Origin: Streptomyces hygroscopicus
Lineage (GTDB): Bacteria > Actinomycetota > Actinomycetes > Streptomycetales > Streptomycetaceae
Direction: 5' to 3'
Length of the DNA stretch: 64,000 nucleotides
NCBI GenBank assembly: GCA_002021875.1
Contig: CP018627.1
Coordinates: 186,001-250,000 of the forward strand
The notes under the pieces were generated by a model. That model was not told the origin of the DNA and ran no database searches. It was given only the letters and a program-made list of their open reading frames with translations. Position 1 is the stretch's first letter; each line of letters begins with the position of its first letter. The position numbers and the translations under genes were made by a program. Positions 13,986 through 64,000 of the stretch are shown piece by piece.

Positions 13986-14640
<655 letters not shown>

Positions 14641-54591: not shown

Positions 54592-55194
54592 TCCGGTGCG
54601 CTCGTCCAGAACGTGGTGCCCGTGCCCGGCCGCGAGGGGTCGCAGAGCAATGCCGGCTCCACCCCGCTGGAGCTGCACGTGGAGAACGCGTTCCATCCGC
54701 ACTGCCCCGACTACGTCAGCCTGCTCTGTCTGCGCAATGACGAGCCCCTGAACGAGGGCACGGTGGTGTCGTCGATCCGCACCGCCCTGGAGCTGCTGAG
54801 CCCCGGGACGCTGCGCGTCCTGCAGGAGGAGCGCTTCACCACCGCCCCGCCGCCGTCCTTCCGCGGCGGCGGCCCCGGCCCCGCACACGCGGTGCTCAGG
54901 GACGACCCGGACGATCCCGACGTGAAGGTGGACTTCCACGCGACGACCGCCAACGACGACGAGGCGAAGGTGGCGTTGGAGGCCCTACGGGGCGCGTTCC
55001 TCGACGGCGCGCGGACGCCGCTCCTGCGGCCGGGCGAGATGGCCGTCGTGGACAACCGCATCGCCATCCACGGGCGCACCGCGTACCAGCCGAAGTACGA
55101 CGGCTACGACCGGTGGCTGCACCGCACCTTCATCCATCTGGACCACCGCCGCACCCGGGCCCACCCAGCCGGCAACGGAAACGTTCTGTTCTGA
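54592..55194 (+). pseudogene. Clavaminate-synthase-like Fe/2-oxoglutarate oxygenase, N-terminally truncated
   Basis: About 200 residues of a VioC/AsnO-like non-heme iron oxygenase. Iron ligands: HVE in LELHVENAFHPHCPDYVSLL and the distal His in VVDNRIAIHGRTAY. The 2-oxoglutarate Arg is in YDRWLHRTFIHLD. The family is normally about 320-350 residues, so the first 140 or so are missing; an in-frame stop lies at 54589 and the only starts are GTGs in the middle of the fold. Members hydroxylate amino acids in peptide antibiotic pathways. Remnant of a lost biosynthetic cluster, or a shortened protein. Confidence 0.65.
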
Positions 55195-56683: not shown

Positions 56684-56902
56684 GTGGGACTGCGACTGCT
56701 CTACCTGATCTTCTGCCGACTACTGGATTGCGCCCTCCTGCTGGGCCGTTCGTCCGCTGCGAGCAACGCCGAGACCCTTGCTCTGCGTCATGAGATCCTT
56801 GCGCTCCGTCGGCAGGTGGAGTGGCCGCGGATTTCGTGGGCCGATCGTGCCGCACTCTCCGCTCTCGCAGAGCACCTGCCACCCGCCTTGCGGGGCGTCG
56901 AG
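56684..56902 (+). pseudogene. Integrase-type transposase, N-terminal fragment
   Basis: GTG-initiated GLRLLYLIFCRLLDCALLLG, then SNAETLALRHEILALRRQVE and WADRAALSALAEHLPP, matches the pieces at 5749 and 13984. It runs in the same frame into the methyltransferase gene with no stop between, giving one 553-codon ORF. The true methyltransferase start is at 57122, and 56903-57121 is meaningless sequence. Confidence 0.65.
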
Positions 56903-57121: not shown

Positions 57122-58345
57122 GTGACCGAGACCGCTGTTGATGCGGAGGCGCCGGAGGTTCTACGCAAGCGGATGGTGGAGGATCTGCGGGAGCAAGGGG
57201 CGCTCGTCTCGCCTGGGGTGGAGGCTGCCTTCGGCAAGGTGCCGCGGCACCTTTTTGTCCCCGAGGTGTCTGCCACAGAGGTGTACGGGGCGCCGGAGGC
57301 GGTCTTTATCAAACGCAACTCGCAGGGTAAGCCGGTCAGTTCGGTCTCGGCTCCATGGCTGCATGCCCGGATGCTGGAGGCGGCGCAGGTGGCTCCCGGC
57401 ATGAGGGTGTTGGAGATCGGCTCCGGAGGGTGCAATGCAGCGCTGCTGGCGGAGTTAGTTGGCGATCAAGGGTCGGTGACCACTGTGGACATTGATCCCG
57501 ACATCACCACGCGGGCCAGCAGGCTACTCGCCGAAGCTGGCTACGGGCAGGTGCGGGTCAGAGAGGCGGACGGTATCCAGCCGCTTCAGGACGCTCCGGC
57601 CCAGGGATTTGATCGCATTGTTGTCACCGTCGGAGCCGCCGACCTGTCGCCCGCTTGGTTGGATCAACTCGCCCCCACGGGACGGCTGGTAGTGCCGCTA
57701 CGTTTCCGCGGCCTCTCCCGCACAATCGCCTTCGCCCGCAAGCAGGATCATCTGCGTAGCGACACACTCATCGTCTCCGGATTCGTTGCCATTCAAGGCG
57801 ACGGTGCGCACGCACCACGCGTCGTACGCCTGGCTGGACAGGAGGTGCGACTGGTCGTCGACGAGAATCAGCCTGCCGACGCCGATGCGCTGGCCGCAGC
57901 GTTCACCAGTCCCCGATATGAGCACTGGACCCGGGTGGAGCTGGGAAGCTCGGAGGGGTTGCTGCCACGGTTGGACGTGTGGCTTGCGGGCGCAATCGCC
58001 CCCTACGGCAGGCTGCGCGCCACGCAGGCTGCGGCCGAGCGTGGCTTGGTCGGCTGGGTGCTGGGCAGGGGCGCGCCCGCGGTGTGGCATCGGGATTCGC
58101 TGGCTTATGTCACGCTGCGCCCTGCCCCGCAGGCGACAGAAGGGCGTTACGAGTTGGGGGTAATCGCCCATGGCCCGGACCGCGAGCGCCTCGCCGCTCA
58201 CCTGGCCGACGCTGTGGGCCGCTTCGACCGCGAGGCCAGGAGTGCGGGGGAGCCTGTTGTGCGCGCCTACCGCCGCGACGTCCGGGAGCACAGCCTCGGC
58301 GAAGTGACCGTCGACAAGCCCAACGTGCGTTTGGTGATCACCTGA
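57122..58345 (+). CDS. FxLD-system PCMT-like methyltransferase
   Basis: A 407-residue SAM-dependent O-methyltransferase of the protein-isoaspartate (PCMT) class found beside FxLD lanthipeptides. GKVPRHLFVPEV and FIKRNSQGKPVSSVSAPWLH are the PCMT entry motifs, and MRVLEIGSGGCNAALLAELV the SAM loop, followed by VTTVDIDPDI. A C-terminal domain of about 190 residues (from 220), not present in housekeeping PCMT, is typical of the RiPP versions. I chose GTG 57122, which has GGAAGGAAG upstream. It lies 81 bp before the precursor. Expected to methylate an Asp in the precursor so that it forms an aspartimide or isoaspartate. Confidence 0.88.
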   Translation: MTETAVDAEAPEVLRKRMVEDLREQGALVSPGVEAAFGKVPRHLFVPEVSATEVYGAPEAVFIKRNSQGKPVSSVSAPWLHARMLEAAQVAPGMRVLEIGSGGCNAALLAELVGDQGSVTTVDIDPDITTRASRLLAEAGYGQVRVREADGIQPLQDAPAQGFDRIVVTVGAADLSPAWLDQLAPTGRLVVPLRFRGLSRTIAFARKQDHLRSDTLIVSGFVAIQGDGAHAPRVVRLAGQEVRLVVDENQPADADALAAAFTSPRYEHWTRVELGSSEGLLPRLDVWLAGAIAPYGRLRATQAAAERGLVGWVLGRGAPAVWHRDSLAYVTLRPAPQATEGRYELGVIAHGPDRERLAAHLADAVGRFDREARSAGEPVVRAYRRDVREHSLGEVTVDKPNVRLVIT

Positions 58346-58382
58346 AGACTCGGACGGCCCGCTGGGGCGGTCCGGATCCACG

Positions 58383-58406
58383 CCTCCCGGCGTTGAGCCC
58401 GGGAGG
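58383..58406 (+). promoter_or_regulatory. Hairpin before the precursor RBS
   Basis: CCTCCCGG (58383-58390) pairs perfectly with CCGGGAGG (58399-58406), loop of 8 nt, ending 7 nt before the strong RBS GGAGGGAG of the precursor. Could protect or boost the precursor mRNA, or mask its translation. Confidence 0.5.
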
Positions 58407-58426
58407 CTCGAGTGGAGGGAGTGAAG

Positions 58427-58633
58427 ATGGCACCACCGACACCGCAGGCACAACCGACCAGAAAACTGGCCGAGCTGCCCGAGGAACTTGCCGACGCCTT
58501 CGACCTGGACCCCACCCAGGAGGACATCGGAAGACTGGGGGGCTGGCTCGGCGGCGACGAGGACGACGAGGGCGACACCACTGGGGACGGCTGCGGGGAG
58601 TCGCCACCGCAGGGCCCGACGACCGGCTGCTGA
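58427..58633 (+). CDS. FxLD-family lanthipeptide precursor
   Basis: A 68-residue prepeptide. Leader about 1-43 with LPEELADAFDLDPTQEDIGR: the FDLD at 25-28 is the family's FxLD motif, as in the FNLD box of class I leaders used by LanB. The core (about 44-68) is very acidic and carries Thr51, Thr52, Ser59, Thr65, Thr66 and just two Cys (56 and the C-terminal 68), allowing two thioether rings. Asp54-Gly55 lies between Thr51/52 and Cys56, the classic isoaspartate-prone pair. The ATG at 58427 has GGAGGGAG 6 bp upstream. No cleavage motif such as GG is obvious, although LGGDE at 41-45 is a candidate site. Confidence 0.9.
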   Translation: MAPPTPQAQPTRKLAELPEELADAFDLDPTQEDIGRLGGWLGGDEDDEGDTTGDGCGESPPQGPTTGC

Positions 58634-58646
58634 CACATGCACTTGG

Positions 58647-58675
58647 GGTCGGGCGCGCGCTGCTCGCGCCCGACC
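58647..58675 (+). terminator. Attenuating hairpin between precursor and lanB
   Basis: A perfect 11-bp stem (58647-58657 with 58665-58675, loop CGCTGCT) lies 13 bp after the precursor stop and 31 bp before the lanB start. Placement is typical of partial terminators that make more precursor than enzyme mRNA. Confidence 0.75.
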
Positions 58676-58706
58676 TCCCTGATCGGTGCTCTCGAAGGGA
58701 CGGCTG

Positions 58707-61559
58707 ATGCGCAGGCTCTTCGACTCCCACTCCATGGCGATGGCCCGGATCCCGTTGCGCCCCTTCCTCCATCCCGACGGCAGTGACTGCGGCGATCTAT
58801 TGGAGGAAGCGGTCTTCATGGCCAGCCGGAGCGCTGCGCGGGCCGCTGCCGAGGCCACGGAGAGCGGACGAGTGACGCGCTGCGCCTACGATCTGCGCTC
58901 CCGACTCCGTACCACCCCGCACGGGGTGTTCGCCGGGGTCGCCCCCGCTGTGCTCACAGCCGCTTCTCCCACCATGTGGCTGGGGGAAGCCCACCGGGCC
59001 GTCACTGCGCTCAGCCCCACCTGGCTGACCGAAATAGCAAACCGGCTGCTCCATGACGAGCCTGATCTGCTGCCCGCGCTCACCCTGACCGCCGCGTCCT
59101 CAGCCACCGCCAGAGGGGACCGGCTGGAGATCGAGCATGCCGTCTCCACGGGGGCACGGTTTGCCAGCGTGCGCGCCACCGAGGTCTCGCGCTGGCTGCT
59201 GGAAGCCAGCCGCGACGGGGCGTCAGCTGCTGCCCTTCTCGCGGAACTTCTCCGCCGCCATCCGGGCGCCGCCCCGCAGAAGGCTGCCCGCGCCATGCTC
59301 GACATGATCGATACCGGTCTGCTGTGGACCAACCTGCTCCCCGCCGACCTGCGCGCGGCCCCGCTGGAGCACCTGCTGGACAAGCTCCCGGCCACAGCGT
59401 CAGCACGGACTCTGCTGACTCATCTGGGCGGTCTGCTGGAGCAGTGCGATGCGCACCCGCCCGGCGCCTTGCAGAGGCGGAAGCTGCTGGCAGAGGCCCG
59501 GGACCTGGCCGACACGCTGCACCACACAAGCCGGCCGCTGGCCGTGGACACCCTCGCCGACGCCGAGATCGCCTTGCCTCCCGCGGTGGGCGAGCAAGCC
59601 GCCGTAGCCGCCTCATTACTGTGGCGGATCGGTCACCGAACCGGCCCACTGACGGAGTATCACCGGCGCTTCTGCGCCGCTTACGGCCGCCAGCGGCTCG
59701 TGCCGCTGCTGGACGCTCTCGACCCCGTCACCGGTCTCGGCCCACCCGGCCCTCACGACGCGATCGGTACCGACGAGGCACCCGACCCGCGTCGCACCGC
59801 TGCCCTGGCCAGGCTGCTCGCCGACGCCCTGTCAGACGGCAAGGGCGAACTCGTCCTCACCGAGCAGCACATCGACCAGCTCGCCAATCCCTCGCCCCTG
59901 CCGCCGCCGTGCACCGCCGAGATCCACGTCCAACTGCTGCGCGGGGCGAACGGACTGCGCATCGCGGTCTGCCCCGGCACGGGCTCCCAGAACGCCGGAG
60001 CCGCCCCCGGCCGCTGGATACGGTGGCTCCCCGGCCTCGCCCCTCGTGAGGAGACCGACACCGGCGGCGGACCCATGATCGCGGAAATCGTCTGCCGCCC
60101 CCGCACCTCCGTCGGCGCACTGGCCGTCGAGACCGGCTGCGCACCCTGGCGCATCCCGCTCGACGTTCCCGCCCGGCCCGGTGATCTCCTCCCCCACGAC
60201 CTCGCCGTCACCACTACCGGGACCCATCTGCAACTGTGGTCCACTCGCCACCACAGGCCAGTTATACCCGTGCTCTACAGCCGCCTCGCGCCCCGGCTCC
60301 TGCCGCCGGCCGCGTACTTGCTCCACCTTCTGGGCCATGCCGGAACCCGGCCGTGGCACCCCTGGAACTGGGGCCCGCTGTTCTGCTGGCCCTACACCCC
60401 GCGCGTGCGCTACCGCGACATCCTTCTCGCCCCCGCACGCTGGCGATTGCCCAACTCCCTCTCCACGACCGCGAACCACCGCTCCGCCTTCGAAACCAAC
60501 CTGCTGGCCTGGCGCACCAGCACTCGCCCCACGCCCCCGTCCGTACTGGTCGCTGAGGAGGCCGACCGCCGCCTCCCCCTCGACCTGCGCCAAGCCGGGC
60601 AGCGCGAGCTGCTGCGCCGCAGCATCCACCGCGGCACCCGGGCTCTGGCCGAACCCTTCGCAGCACCCGAGGAACTGGCCGTGGTCGATGGTCCAAACGG
60701 CGGCCGCCACCTGATCGACCTCGTCGTCCCCCTCACACGGCGCCACACCCCACATCACACGCCGTCCGACCCGCGCCACGCACTGCGCGCTGCGGGCACC
60801 GGCACCCACCTGCCCGGCAGCAACTGGCTTTCAGCCGCTCTCTCCGCACCCGGCCACCTCCACAACACCGTCCTCGCCGAACTCGCCCCGCTGCTGACCA
60901 ACCTCCCCGACGACGTCGACCGCTGGTTCTGGCTGCGCTACACCACACCGGCCCTCGGACCCCACCTGCGCCTGCGCTTCCACGCCGAACCCCACACGCT
61001 CGCCACCCGCATCCAGCCACAACTCGCCCGCCTCGCCGACCGGCTACATCAGCGCAGGCTGCTCGGCTCCAGCGCTCTGCGCCTGGAGCCGTATGAACAG
61101 GAGATCGAGCGCTACGGCGGGCCTCAGGCCATCACCGCAGTCGAAGACCTCTTCTGCGCCGACAGTCGTCTCGCCCTGGCCGCCCTCCCCCATACCGAGG
61201 ACGTGCGCCTTCTCGCCGCCGCTGCCAGCGCTGCCGAGATCGCCCGCACCCTTGCACCCGGCCAGCCCCACTCCGCCCTCGGCCCTGGCCGCCTCACCCA
61301 AGACCAGCGCCGCCACCGTGACGCCCTCCGCCCCCGCCTCGCTGACGCCTCCAACGCGCTCATTCCCGCCAATCTCGCCCCTGCCTACGCAGAGCGACGC
61401 GCCGCACTGATCGCCTATCGCGACGCCGTTCCCCAGCAGTCCGCCGCCCAGTGCGCCAGCGATGTCATCCACATGCACGCCAACCGCATGCTCACCGTCG
61501 ACCCAGGAATCGAACAGATCATGCGGACCCTGGCCGCCGACTTCCTGCACCGCCGATGA
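58707..61559 (+). CDS. Full-length class I lanthipeptide dehydratase LanB
   Basis: A 950-residue LanB with both catalytic parts. The N-terminal glutamylation domain (about 10-660) includes RLRTTPHGVFAGVAP, the conserved TPxGxFAG motif. The C-terminal glutamate-elimination domain (about 690-945) has GSNWLSAALSAPGHLHNTVL, DRWFWLRYTTPALGPHLRLR and LEPYEQEIERYGG followed by FCADS. It uses glutamyl-tRNA to dehydrate Ser and Thr of the precursor. ATG 58707 follows GAAGGGA; a longer frame begins at 58686. Its stop overlaps the lanC start. Length and both domains show it is complete, not split as in thiopeptide loci. Confidence 0.92.
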   Translation: MRRLFDSHSMAMARIPLRPFLHPDGSDCGDLLEEAVFMASRSAARAAAEATESGRVTRCAYDLRSRLRTTPHGVFAGVAPAVLTAASPTMWLGEAHRAVTALSPTWLTEIANRLLHDEPDLLPALTLTAASSATARGDRLEIEHAVSTGARFASVRATEVSRWLLEASRDGASAAALLAELLRRHPGAAPQKAARAMLDMIDTGLLWTNLLPADLRAAPLEHLLDKLPATASARTLLTHLGGLLEQCDAHPPGALQRRKLLAEARDLADTLHHTSRPLAVDTLADAEIALPPAVGEQAAVAASLLWRIGHRTGPLTEYHRRFCAAYGRQRLVPLLDALDPVTGLGPPGPHDAIGTDEAPDPRRTAALARLLADALSDGKGELVLTEQHIDQLANPSPLPPPCTAEIHVQLLRGANGLRIAVCPGTGSQNAGAAPGRWIRWLPGLAPREETDTGGGPMIAEIVCRPRTSVGALAVETGCAPWRIPLDVPARPGDLLPHDLAVTTTGTHLQLWSTRHHRPVIPVLYSRLAPRLLPPAAYLLHLLGHAGTRPWHPWNWGPLFCWPYTPRVRYRDILLAPARWRLPNSLSTTANHRSAFETNLLAWRTSTRPTPPSVLVAEEADRRLPLDLRQAGQRELLRRSIHRGTRALAEPFAAPEELAVVDGPNGGRHLIDLVVPLTRRHTPHHTPSDPRHALRAAGTGTHLPGSNWLSAALSAPGHLHNTVLAELAPLLTNLPDDVDRWFWLRYTTPALGPHLRLRFHAEPHTLATRIQPQLARLADRLHQRRLLGSSALRLEPYEQEIERYGGPQAITAVEDLFCADSRLALAALPHTEDVRLLAAAASAAEIARTLAPGQPHSALGPGRLTQDQRRHRDALRPRLADASNALIPANLAPAYAERRAALIAYRDAVPQQSAAQCASDVIHMHANRMLTVDPGIEQIMRTLAADFLHRR

Positions 61560-62782
61560 GCACCACCATCGACGCCCAGGCCGCCGCGTGCGCATTGGAC
61601 ATCGCGCGCGACCTGCGCATCCCCGGCGACGTGGCCGCTTCCATATCGGACCGGGCCGCCCACACCCTGTGCTACGGGCTCGCCGGCACCGCCCTCCTGC
61701 ACGCCTGCCTCGCCGAGACCGAACCCGGCTCAGCCACCACGGCCGCGGCCCACTGGGACGCCACCGCCCGCACGTTGGCCAAGGCGCCTGCGGACGGCAT
61801 CCACACCGGTCCCGGAGCCCTCGCTGCCTCCCTGATCATCGGTACCGGCTACCTTCCCTCTCGCGACCCTCACCAGGCCCTGCTGCCCCGCGCCACAGCC
61901 TGGCTCTCCGCCCGCGCCACCGCACTCGCTCACCATCACCACCATCGCGCCGCCCGCACAGAAGCCACCCCTTGGGCGGTCTACGACGCCATCAAGGGGC
62001 TCACCGGCATCGGCCGCGTCCTTCTCGCCGCCCACAACCGCGGACACCGCGCCGACGCCGAACCAGGACTACGCGCGACCCTAACGGCCCTTACCCACAT
62101 GATCCTCACCCCCGTCGGAACCCGCCCGGGCTGGTGGCTTCCCGCCACCCTTCACCCACCCACCGTCAACATCCCGCCCTCCGGCGCCGCCACCACCGGT
62201 CTCGCTCACGGCATCGCCGGACCTCTCGCTCTCCTGGCCACAGCTCAACGAGCCGGACACACCGTTCCAGGGCAACCCGACGCAATCCACACCGCAGCCC
62301 AGTGGCTCCTCACCTGGCAAACCCCCGAAAACACCTGGCCACCCCACATCAGCGGGAACGTCTTGGATAACAGCTCAGGAGGAACTGCCCCCGTCACAGG
62401 ACGCACCACCGCCTGGTGCTACGGCACCCCCGGCATCGGCGCCGCTCTCGCCAGCGCTGGCCACGCCCTTGATCTCCCGGCACTCAACCGCGCCGCTACT
62501 ACAGCCATGAACGCCCTCGCCGCACAGCCGCCCGAAGACTGGGACACCGAAGGCACCGCCCTCTGCCATGGCAGCGCCGGCATCCTTCAAAGCGCCCTCC
62601 GCCTCTCCTGCCGCCCTTTGGCAGACCGCGCCGCTCACATCACACTGACCTCCGCCGTGACCTCACGCCCGCACGGATTCCTCACCGGCCGAACCGGTAC
62701 CGCATTGGCCCTCGCCAACCTCAGCGGCCTACTGCCAGCCAGCCCGGCCAATGCCTGGGACTGCCTCGTCCTGCTGTCCTAG
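61556..62782 (+). CDS. Lanthipeptide cyclase LanC
   Basis: A 408-residue zinc cyclase that joins Cys thiols to dehydrated residues. Zinc ligands are in TAWCYGTPGIG (Cys288) and LCHGSAGIL (Cys337, His338); GLAHGIAGPLALLA (about 215) is the catalytic His region. ATG overlaps the lanB stop (ATGA). It ends in DCLVLLS. Last gene of the lanthipeptide operon; no transporter or protease follows. Confidence 0.9.
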   Translation: MSTTIDAQAAACALDIARDLRIPGDVAASISDRAAHTLCYGLAGTALLHACLAETEPGSATTAAAHWDATARTLAKAPADGIHTGPGALAASLIIGTGYLPSRDPHQALLPRATAWLSARATALAHHHHHRAARTEATPWAVYDAIKGLTGIGRVLLAAHNRGHRADAEPGLRATLTALTHMILTPVGTRPGWWLPATLHPPTVNIPPSGAATTGLAHGIAGPLALLATAQRAGHTVPGQPDAIHTAAQWLLTWQTPENTWPPHISGNVLDNSSGGTAPVTGRTTAWCYGTPGIGAALASAGHALDLPALNRAATTAMNALAAQPPEDWDTEGTALCHGSAGILQSALRLSCRPLADRAAHITLTSAVTSRPHGFLTGRTGTALALANLSGLLPASPANAWDCLVLLS

Positions 62783-63365: not shown

Positions 63366-64000
63366 CTATCCGAGGAGGATGCGGTGGCGAAGGAGGGTGA
63401 AGCCTGCTCGTCCGTGCATCTGGCGCGCGATGCGCTTGGTCTTGGTGTTGACACCCTCGGTGGGGCCGTTGCTGTACGGAAGCGTGAGCGCGGCGACCAC
63501 GGCGTCGCGGTCCCGCTCCAGGCCCCGGGTGAAGGCCCGCAGATGAGGCAGATCGGCTGCACGGACCCGGACGATCCAGCGCGAGAGCCCGTCGGCATTT
63601 TCTGCGCAAGGCGTCAGGAGTTCGGCGTAGCCACGGACAACGGCGGCCAGTTGGGTCATCTCGGGGCATGCTGCGGTGATTCGCGCCAGCAGATCGCGCT
63701 GCTCGGCCTTGAGGTTGTCGGGCCTGGTGAGGATCATCCGGGCGAGTCGGCGCGGGGAGATGTGGCAGCGTTCAGCGTCCGCGCGGCCTTGGTTGATATT
63801 CTTTTGCTGGAGGTTCAGGCAGCCGGTGAACCCGAGGGGCTTGATCTCTTCGAAGAGGTGGCTGACGGGGACGGCGGGGTCCTCGGTGCGACGTTTGCGC
63901 AGGTGCTCGCGGTAGGGGTCGACGAGGCTGGCACGGTACTTGGGGACGCGGAGCATCCGCTCGGGCCGGTCGGCTCGCGCGTAGCGTTTGACGGTGTTCA
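63366..64000 (-). CDS. ISL3-family transposase, partial at the window edge
   Basis: The last 211 residues of an ISL3 DDE transposase. HLFEEIKPLGFTGCLNLQQK, then SPRRLARMILTRPDNL and LPYSNGPTEGVNTKTKRIAR (the conserved NGPxEGxNxxxK end) are diagnostic. The frame is open to base 64000, so the start lies outside the window. The copy looks intact so far. Confidence 0.88.
   Translation of the reverse strand, partial: NTVKRYARADRPERMLRVPKYRASLVDPYREHLRKRRTEDPAVPVSHLFEEIKPLGFTGCLNLQQKNINQGRADAERCHISPRRLARMILTRPDNLKAEQRDLLARITAACPEMTQLAAVVRGYAELLTPCAENADGLSRWIVRVRAADLPHLRAFTRGLERDRDAVVAALTLPYSNGPTEGVNTKTKRIARQMHGRAGFTLLRHRILLG

Follow-up and report, generated by a model that had tools for sequence, protein, structure and literature searches.

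The window analysed here, a 64,000-nucleotide stretch of the Streptomyces hygroscopicus genome (contig CP018627.1, positions 186,001 to 250,000), contains four adjacent genes at 57122..62782. They encode an O-methyltransferase of the protein isoaspartate methyltransferase (PIMT) type, a short precursor peptide, a lantibiotic dehydratase LanB and a cyclase LanC. This four-gene cassette is real, and its sequence features make it very probable that it directs the synthesis of a class I lanthipeptide whose ring aspartate is rewired by the methyltransferase, a so-called lanthimiditide. The operon is of the FxLD type, with a precursor outside the curated FxLD precursor family; as a lanthimiditide variant, it joins a set of genes and a chemistry that are already known to a distinct precursor branch. 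Judged from the sequence, the operon is probably functional.

The cassette and its enzymes

57122..58345, plus strand: PIMT-type O-methyltransferase (FxlM / LanSA type), 407 aa, GTG start
58427..58633, plus strand: LanA precursor, 68 aa, with FDLD at residues 25-28, core GDTTGDGCGESPPQGPTTGC at residues 49-68 and the TxDGC motif as T52-G53-D54-G55-C56
58571..58630, plus strand: 20-codon core of the precursor, near-invariant in protein sequence with synonymous variation in 13 close members
58707..61559, plus strand: LanB, full-length lantibiotic dehydratase, 950 aa, ATG start (PF04738, PF14028, TIGR03891)
61556..62782, plus strand: LanC cyclase, 408 aa, ATG start overlapping the LanB stop (PF05147, WCYG and CHG motifs)

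All four reading frames are intact and lie on the plus strand. The initial annotation had described a contiguous methyltransferase, a 68-residue FDLD precursor, a full LanB and a LanC at these positions, and the intact frames and Pfam matches bear this out. Its further statement that the genes are translationally linked holds for LanB and LanC only, which share an ATGA overlap at 61556-61559; the methyltransferase and precursor genes are separated by 81 nt, and the precursor and LanB genes by 73 nt with a stem-loop inside. The LanB and LanC starts are backed by relatives, whose alignments open at the same residue.

The methyltransferase is a member of the FxLD-system family TIGR04364 (methyltransferase, FxLD system), with 441.3 bits against a curated cut-off of 320 and a match that spans practically the whole profile (3-392 of 394). 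Its scores are 123.3 bits with the graspetide methyltransferase model TIGR04188, 114.3 bits with Pfam PCMT, and at most 116.5 bits with repair-PIMT models among the matches listed (25 of 29 families). The previously proposed link to FxLD systems thus extends to the C-terminal part of the enzyme, where a missing match had been named as a reason to reject it. A C-terminal motif WXXXGXP is listed for lasso, graspetide and imiditide PIMTs in a passage of PMC13001092 whose list does not include the lanthipeptide enzymes; by eye, this motif is missing from the window methyltransferase, which has W312-VLGR-G317-A-P319, longer by one residue.

Both Lant_dehydr domains of LanB lie in a single 950-aa protein (PF04738, 402.5 bits; PF14028, 131.5 bits), the glutamylation and the elimination domain of a class I dehydratase both being present. 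LanB also matches TIGR03891 (135.8 bits, cut-off 48.45), and its nearest solved chain is 5ehk_A (242 bits), presumably MibB. LanC matches the LANC_like family PF05147 with 103.3 bits, and its WCYG and CHG motifs line up with NisC (2g02) and 8byk, supplying the Cys, Cys and His that we take to bind zinc.

The precursor and its conserved core

The precursor combines an FDLD leader with a core containing T51, T52, S59, T65 and T66 together with C56 and C68, as a class I precursor should. FxLD is described as a class I leader or recognition motif (PMC7268733, PMC12710340), and TxDGC is reported for most lanthipeptide precursors encoded with PIMT homologues (PMC10787088, PMC13001092). Both marks of a lanthimiditide, a PIMT homologue in the cluster and a TxDGC core motif, are found in the cassette.

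Of the 13 close members (the window, L012, L046-L054, L057 and L060), 12 have one and the same 20-residue core, and the exception carries T66S; synonymous changes affect 16 of the 20 codons, and the leader is far more variable. The protein database contains 74 proteins matching the precursor profile, the window's own among them, and 34 of these have the exact core; one comes from Actinacidiphila (P0058). The [TS]xD[GN]C motif is found in 73 of the 74, with Thr in 72 and Ser in P0035. For the column counts, a pattern demanding Thr/Ser, Asp and Cys was used, which by itself makes these columns constant in the 71 rows that it counted; the figure of 73 also draws on a separate reading of the three rows that it missed (P0063, P0071 and P0075). 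The motif is lost only in P0075, with an apparent frame disruption; P0074 keeps TGDGC and has a disrupted C-terminus.

The first Thr is missing from two of the separately read proteins, P0063 and P0071, with TGDGC retained in both, which makes T52, rather than T51, the likely donor of ring A. At position 66, every one of the 74 except the disrupted P0074 and P0075 has T or S, and this conservation fits a ring or dehydration site.

A source name is attached to 51 of the 74 related proteins, in every case "hypothetical protein"; UniRef labels among these 51 include "FxLD family lantipeptide" for an S. coffeae protein and protein-L-isoaspartate protein for P0031. The core strings GESPPQGPTTGC and DTTGDGCG are absent from the literature text, and TTGDGC occurs there only in two unrelated papers, figures and supplements lying outside this search. 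It may be that Walker 2020 (PMC7268733) already includes this branch in its class I families.

A branch outside the curated precursor family

The FxLD precursor model TIGR04363 (cut-off 30 bits) is passed by none of the 17 group members, the window included, and only four give weak matches (best E 0.019). By contrast, all nine ordinary FxLD precursors tested pass it, at 48-59 bits. These controls were taken from 16 ordinary FxLD precursor rows, several of which are duplicates (left out were L023, L024, L025, L031, L032, L034 and L035). The cousin precursors L015 and L016 have no TIGR04363 match.

In the tree of 43 methyltransferases, the window group together with L015-L017 stands opposite 22 other enzymes of the genus (L018-L039) with support 100/99. 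An ordinary FxLD-type precursor lies within the flank in 16 of these 22, and none was seen in the flank of the other six. The TTGDGC group requires two changes on this tree and is not one unbroken clade; its two well-supported subgroups are that of the window, with the orphan enzyme L014 inside, and that of L055, L056, L058 and L059.

Distribution and selection

One genome per species (84,980 species) was scanned with the exact peptide patterns GDTTGDGC and PQGPTTGC, which miss diverged members. The scan gave 48 stretches, and 14 loci in 13 strains (11 Streptomyces, two Kitasatospora) were confirmed. In these loci, found by the precursor alone, the order methyltransferase-precursor-LanB is kept in all 14, and LanC is next in 11; the three exceptions (L049, L051 and L053) are cut by contig ends. 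The L059 precursor misses the 1e-5 listing limit and yet is present at the right place. Streptomyces sp. KN37 carries a fifteenth copy on a linear plasmid, where the genes are annotated as fxlM, hypothetical protein, lantibiotic dehydratase and LanC family protein. The plasmid LanC (L060:13138-14362) matches in two separate pieces of 59 and 334 residues, and the cyclase there may be disrupted. Streptomyces endocoffeicus has two cassettes (L054 and L059), one from each sub-branch.

The sequences point to purifying selection on the cassette enzymes and on the core: dN/dS (Nei-Gojobori) for the three enzymes is 0.19-0.31 relative to two relatives, L046 and L050. The conserved neighbours in loci found by the precursor alone, together with dN well below dS, argue that the gene set did not come about by chance.

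Methyltransferases of this kind are common, members of this branch uncommon. A match at E <=1e-60 was found in 98 of 392 Streptomyces genomes, the window's own included, and in 21 of the 30 loci whose neighbours were looked at (again with the window's) a TxD[GN]C precursor lies within 1.5-kb flanks. Identity of at least 65% was seen in four other genomes: G028 (L011), G047 (L012), G329 (L013, taken as the same genome as L052 and counted once) and G156 (the orphan L014/L043); the remaining matches are 38-49% identical. The G028 copy (L011/L040) is degraded: its methyltransferase is 81% identical over residues 30-407 with the first 31 residues in another frame, and the LanC match covers only 64 residues on the opposite strand. 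A second FxLD-like methyltransferase in the S. hygroscopicus genome (G000:C1:9464119-9465320, L009) matches in two pieces with an internal stop and was set aside. Judged by eye, it is surrounded by frames of Nudix-like, methyltransferase and ABC-transporter type; the ORF lists showed no sign of LanB, LanC or a precursor, the locus not having been searched with LanB or LanC queries.

Predicted product

In the proposed pathway, LanB, guided by the FDLD leader motif, would dehydrate the core Thr and Ser residues using glutamyl-tRNA. LanC would then add the two cysteines, forming ring A between T52 and C56 around D54 and closing ring B on C68 at the C-terminus, with T66 as the most likely donor (or else T65). 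The methyltransferase would recognise the cyclised core and esterify D54, and the ester would collapse to an aspartimide, to be hydrolysed largely to isoaspartate, as in OlvA. The stem-loop after the precursor gene probably keeps the precursor in excess over LanB, and leader removal and export would be performed by enzymes encoded elsewhere.

The order of steps follows that described for OlvA, where dehydration and cyclisation precede the action of the PIMT homologue, which esterifies Asp (PMC13001092), OlvSA being active only on the cyclised peptide (PMC10787088, PMC13001092). By this analogy, D54, lying within TGDGC and the T52-C56 ring, is the supported candidate for the modified residue. 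The earlier prediction of a product with thioether rings and a methylated or succinimide-type Asp, which did not specify the Asp, is supported by the TIGR04364 match. The accompanying remark that products of FxLD systems are little characterised remains correct for the mature products; the chemistry, by contrast, is familiar from Streptomyces olivaceus OlvA (PMC13001092).

RNA elements and neighbouring genes

58647..58675, plus strand: intercistronic stem-loop between the precursor and LanB genes, 11 uninterrupted base pairs (from shuffles and alignment)
58383..58406, plus strand: short GC-rich inverted repeat CCTCCCGG...CCGGGAGG, upstream of the ribosome-binding region of the precursor (read from the sequence)

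None of 300 shuffles reached the 11-pair stem, and an uninterrupted Watson-Crick stem of at least 8 pairs is present in 13 of 17 loci, the window included, failing in L049, L050, L052 and L060. In an alignment of nine of the 13 closer loci (L051, L052, L053 and L057 left out), the RNAalifold consensus has 12 pairs, of which 5 show changes on both sides; three of the nine loci have a break or gap at one pair, and two other pairs are affected in one of the nine. By folding energy, the 75-nt stretch of the window does not stand out (z -1.3, with the 17 loci spanning 0.0 to -5.5), and the stem-length test and the alignment are better evidence for the hairpin. The 85-nt stretch with the inverted repeat has z -3.2 in the window and z above -1 in 8 of 16 other loci; therefore, this repeat is not a conserved feature.

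About 580 bp downstream of LanC, an ISL3-type transposase gene (63366-64000, minus strand) shows that the cassette adjoins insertion-sequence (IS) material. The window end cuts its frame, the part inside scoring 121.9 bits with NF033550 (cut-off 180), and it continues in L061:866-2038. By eye, nothing downstream of LanC resembles a cassette protease or transporter, and the genes there look unrelated. Upstream, an in-frame extension of the methyltransferase frame at 56684-56870 encodes LRHEILALRRQV...WADRAALSALAEHLP and by eye resembles the frame 14081-14569. It has no Pfam or NCBIfam match; presumably it resembles the N-terminus of integrase-type transposases, and it is likely an IS remnant. 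Another reading frame, 54613-55194, apparently truncated at its 5' end, looks like what we take to be the C-terminal part of a clavaminate-synthase-type Fe/2-oxoglutarate oxygenase.

Alternative interpretations

It is extremely improbable that the methyltransferase is a housekeeping protein-repair PIMT merely adjoining a lanthipeptide operon: it stands next to the precursor in 14 of 14 loci, reaches 441 bits with TIGR04364 versus at most 116.5 bits with repair-PIMT models among the matches listed, and appears to have a long C-terminal extension. A second alternative, which we regard as unlikely, is that the product is simply an ordinary FxLD lanthipeptide, belonging to the TIGR04363 family and in no way separate. 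The FDLD leader, FxLD methyltransferase, LanB and LanC are all there, TxD[GN]C is common to ordinary FxLD cores and the window group, and four of the 17 group members do show the weak model matches. Yet the cut-off separates all 17 from the nine ordinary precursors tested, the methyltransferase tree splits the group with L015-L017 from 22 enzymes that mostly (16 of 22) have an ordinary FxLD-type precursor in the flank, and the window group has two cysteines and a proline-rich linker versus 3-4 cysteines in ordinary FxLD cores. The cassette could also be a decaying, unexpressed passenger among insertion sequences, as the ISL3 transposase downstream, the IS-like frame seen by eye upstream, the degraded copy L011 in another genome and the two-piece LanC match in KN37 might suggest; the four intact frames of the window, their retained catalytic motifs and dN well below dS render this improbable. 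The last alternative concerns only the end of the pathway, namely that the final product keeps the aspartimide (succinimide) instead of isoaspartate. Aspartimides persist in some ribosomally synthesized and post-translationally modified peptides, such as lihuanodin and fuscimiditide, while in OlvA, the closest studied lanthipeptide, the aspartimide hydrolyses to 70-80% isoaspartate (PMC13001092); retention therefore appears somewhat unlikely.

The lanthimiditide interpretation has to accommodate several observations that weigh against it. The window precursor, when compared with the FxLD precursor model as the initial annotation had suggested, gave no match to TIGR04363 even at an E limit of 10, HMMER filters discarding most matches above E ~0.1. 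The ring pattern of the product is one that we infer from the core, and S59 is also conserved and is a possible ring donor. In the orphan locus L043 (G156:C33:50001-69000), which has a 65% identical methyltransferase and two further PIMT-like stretches, no LanB, LanC or precursor match was found in the 19 kb fetched, indicating that the methyltransferase can persist without the peptide. Finally, the four genes aside, no gene family is shared by more than five of 17 loci (part of the window together with L041 and L046-L060; genes of at least 60 aa by a simple composition score, several loci being short or cut), and there is no recurrent protease, transporter or immunity gene.

Possible role

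Antibiotic lanthipeptides are usually less constant than this core. It is nevertheless quite doubtful that one near-identical two-ring isoaspartate/aspartimide peptide is shared across Streptomyces, Kitasatospora and their neighbours as a conserved signal or developmental factor and not as a weapon; a self-contained cassette, to which no transporter or immunity gene is recurrently linked, would fit such a role, if it is true. What isoaspartate or aspartimide does biologically in such peptides is described as largely unknown (PMC10787088, PMC13001092). The short core, with two cysteines and E58 between the expected rings, would be an unusually simple substrate for probing the role of the modification. 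As the branch fails the current precursor model, and is labelled "hypothetical protein" wherever a source name is given, a new model would recover it.

Comparison with known systems

Gene set and chemistry of the cassette are known; its precursor branch, by contrast, is distinct, highly conserved and for the most part unlabelled, and the core is very simple. MibB (5ehk) and NisC (PDB 2g02) share the LanB domain architecture and the LanC cyclase motifs, respectively, with the window enzymes and are remote from them in sequence; to our knowledge, their pathways have no PIMT-type methyltransferase. The closest studied system is OlvA/OlvSA of Streptomyces olivaceus NRRL B-3009. Common features described for it are a class I LanB, a LanC and a PIMT homologue with a C-terminal extension (PMC13001092, PMC11285071), as well as a conserved Asp in a thioether ring, TxDGC being reported for most such precursors. 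Set against the description of OlvA, the window core stands out by having just two cysteines, together with a proline-rich SPPQGP linker.

With the FxLD family (TIGR04363/TIGR04364), the cassette shares the equivalog match of the methyltransferase, the F-x-L-D leader motif and the TxD[GN]C core start, but its precursor fails the precursor model and its methyltransferase belongs to a separate tree branch. Clear cousins are provided by the Streptomyces loci L015 and L016, with the same gene order and the cores DGCGPSPTTGPTTGC or DNCGQSPTTGHTTGC. These cores differ from that of the window by two extra cysteines, one just before TxD and one in the C-terminal tail, and the cousin methyltransferases are 48% identical to that of the window.
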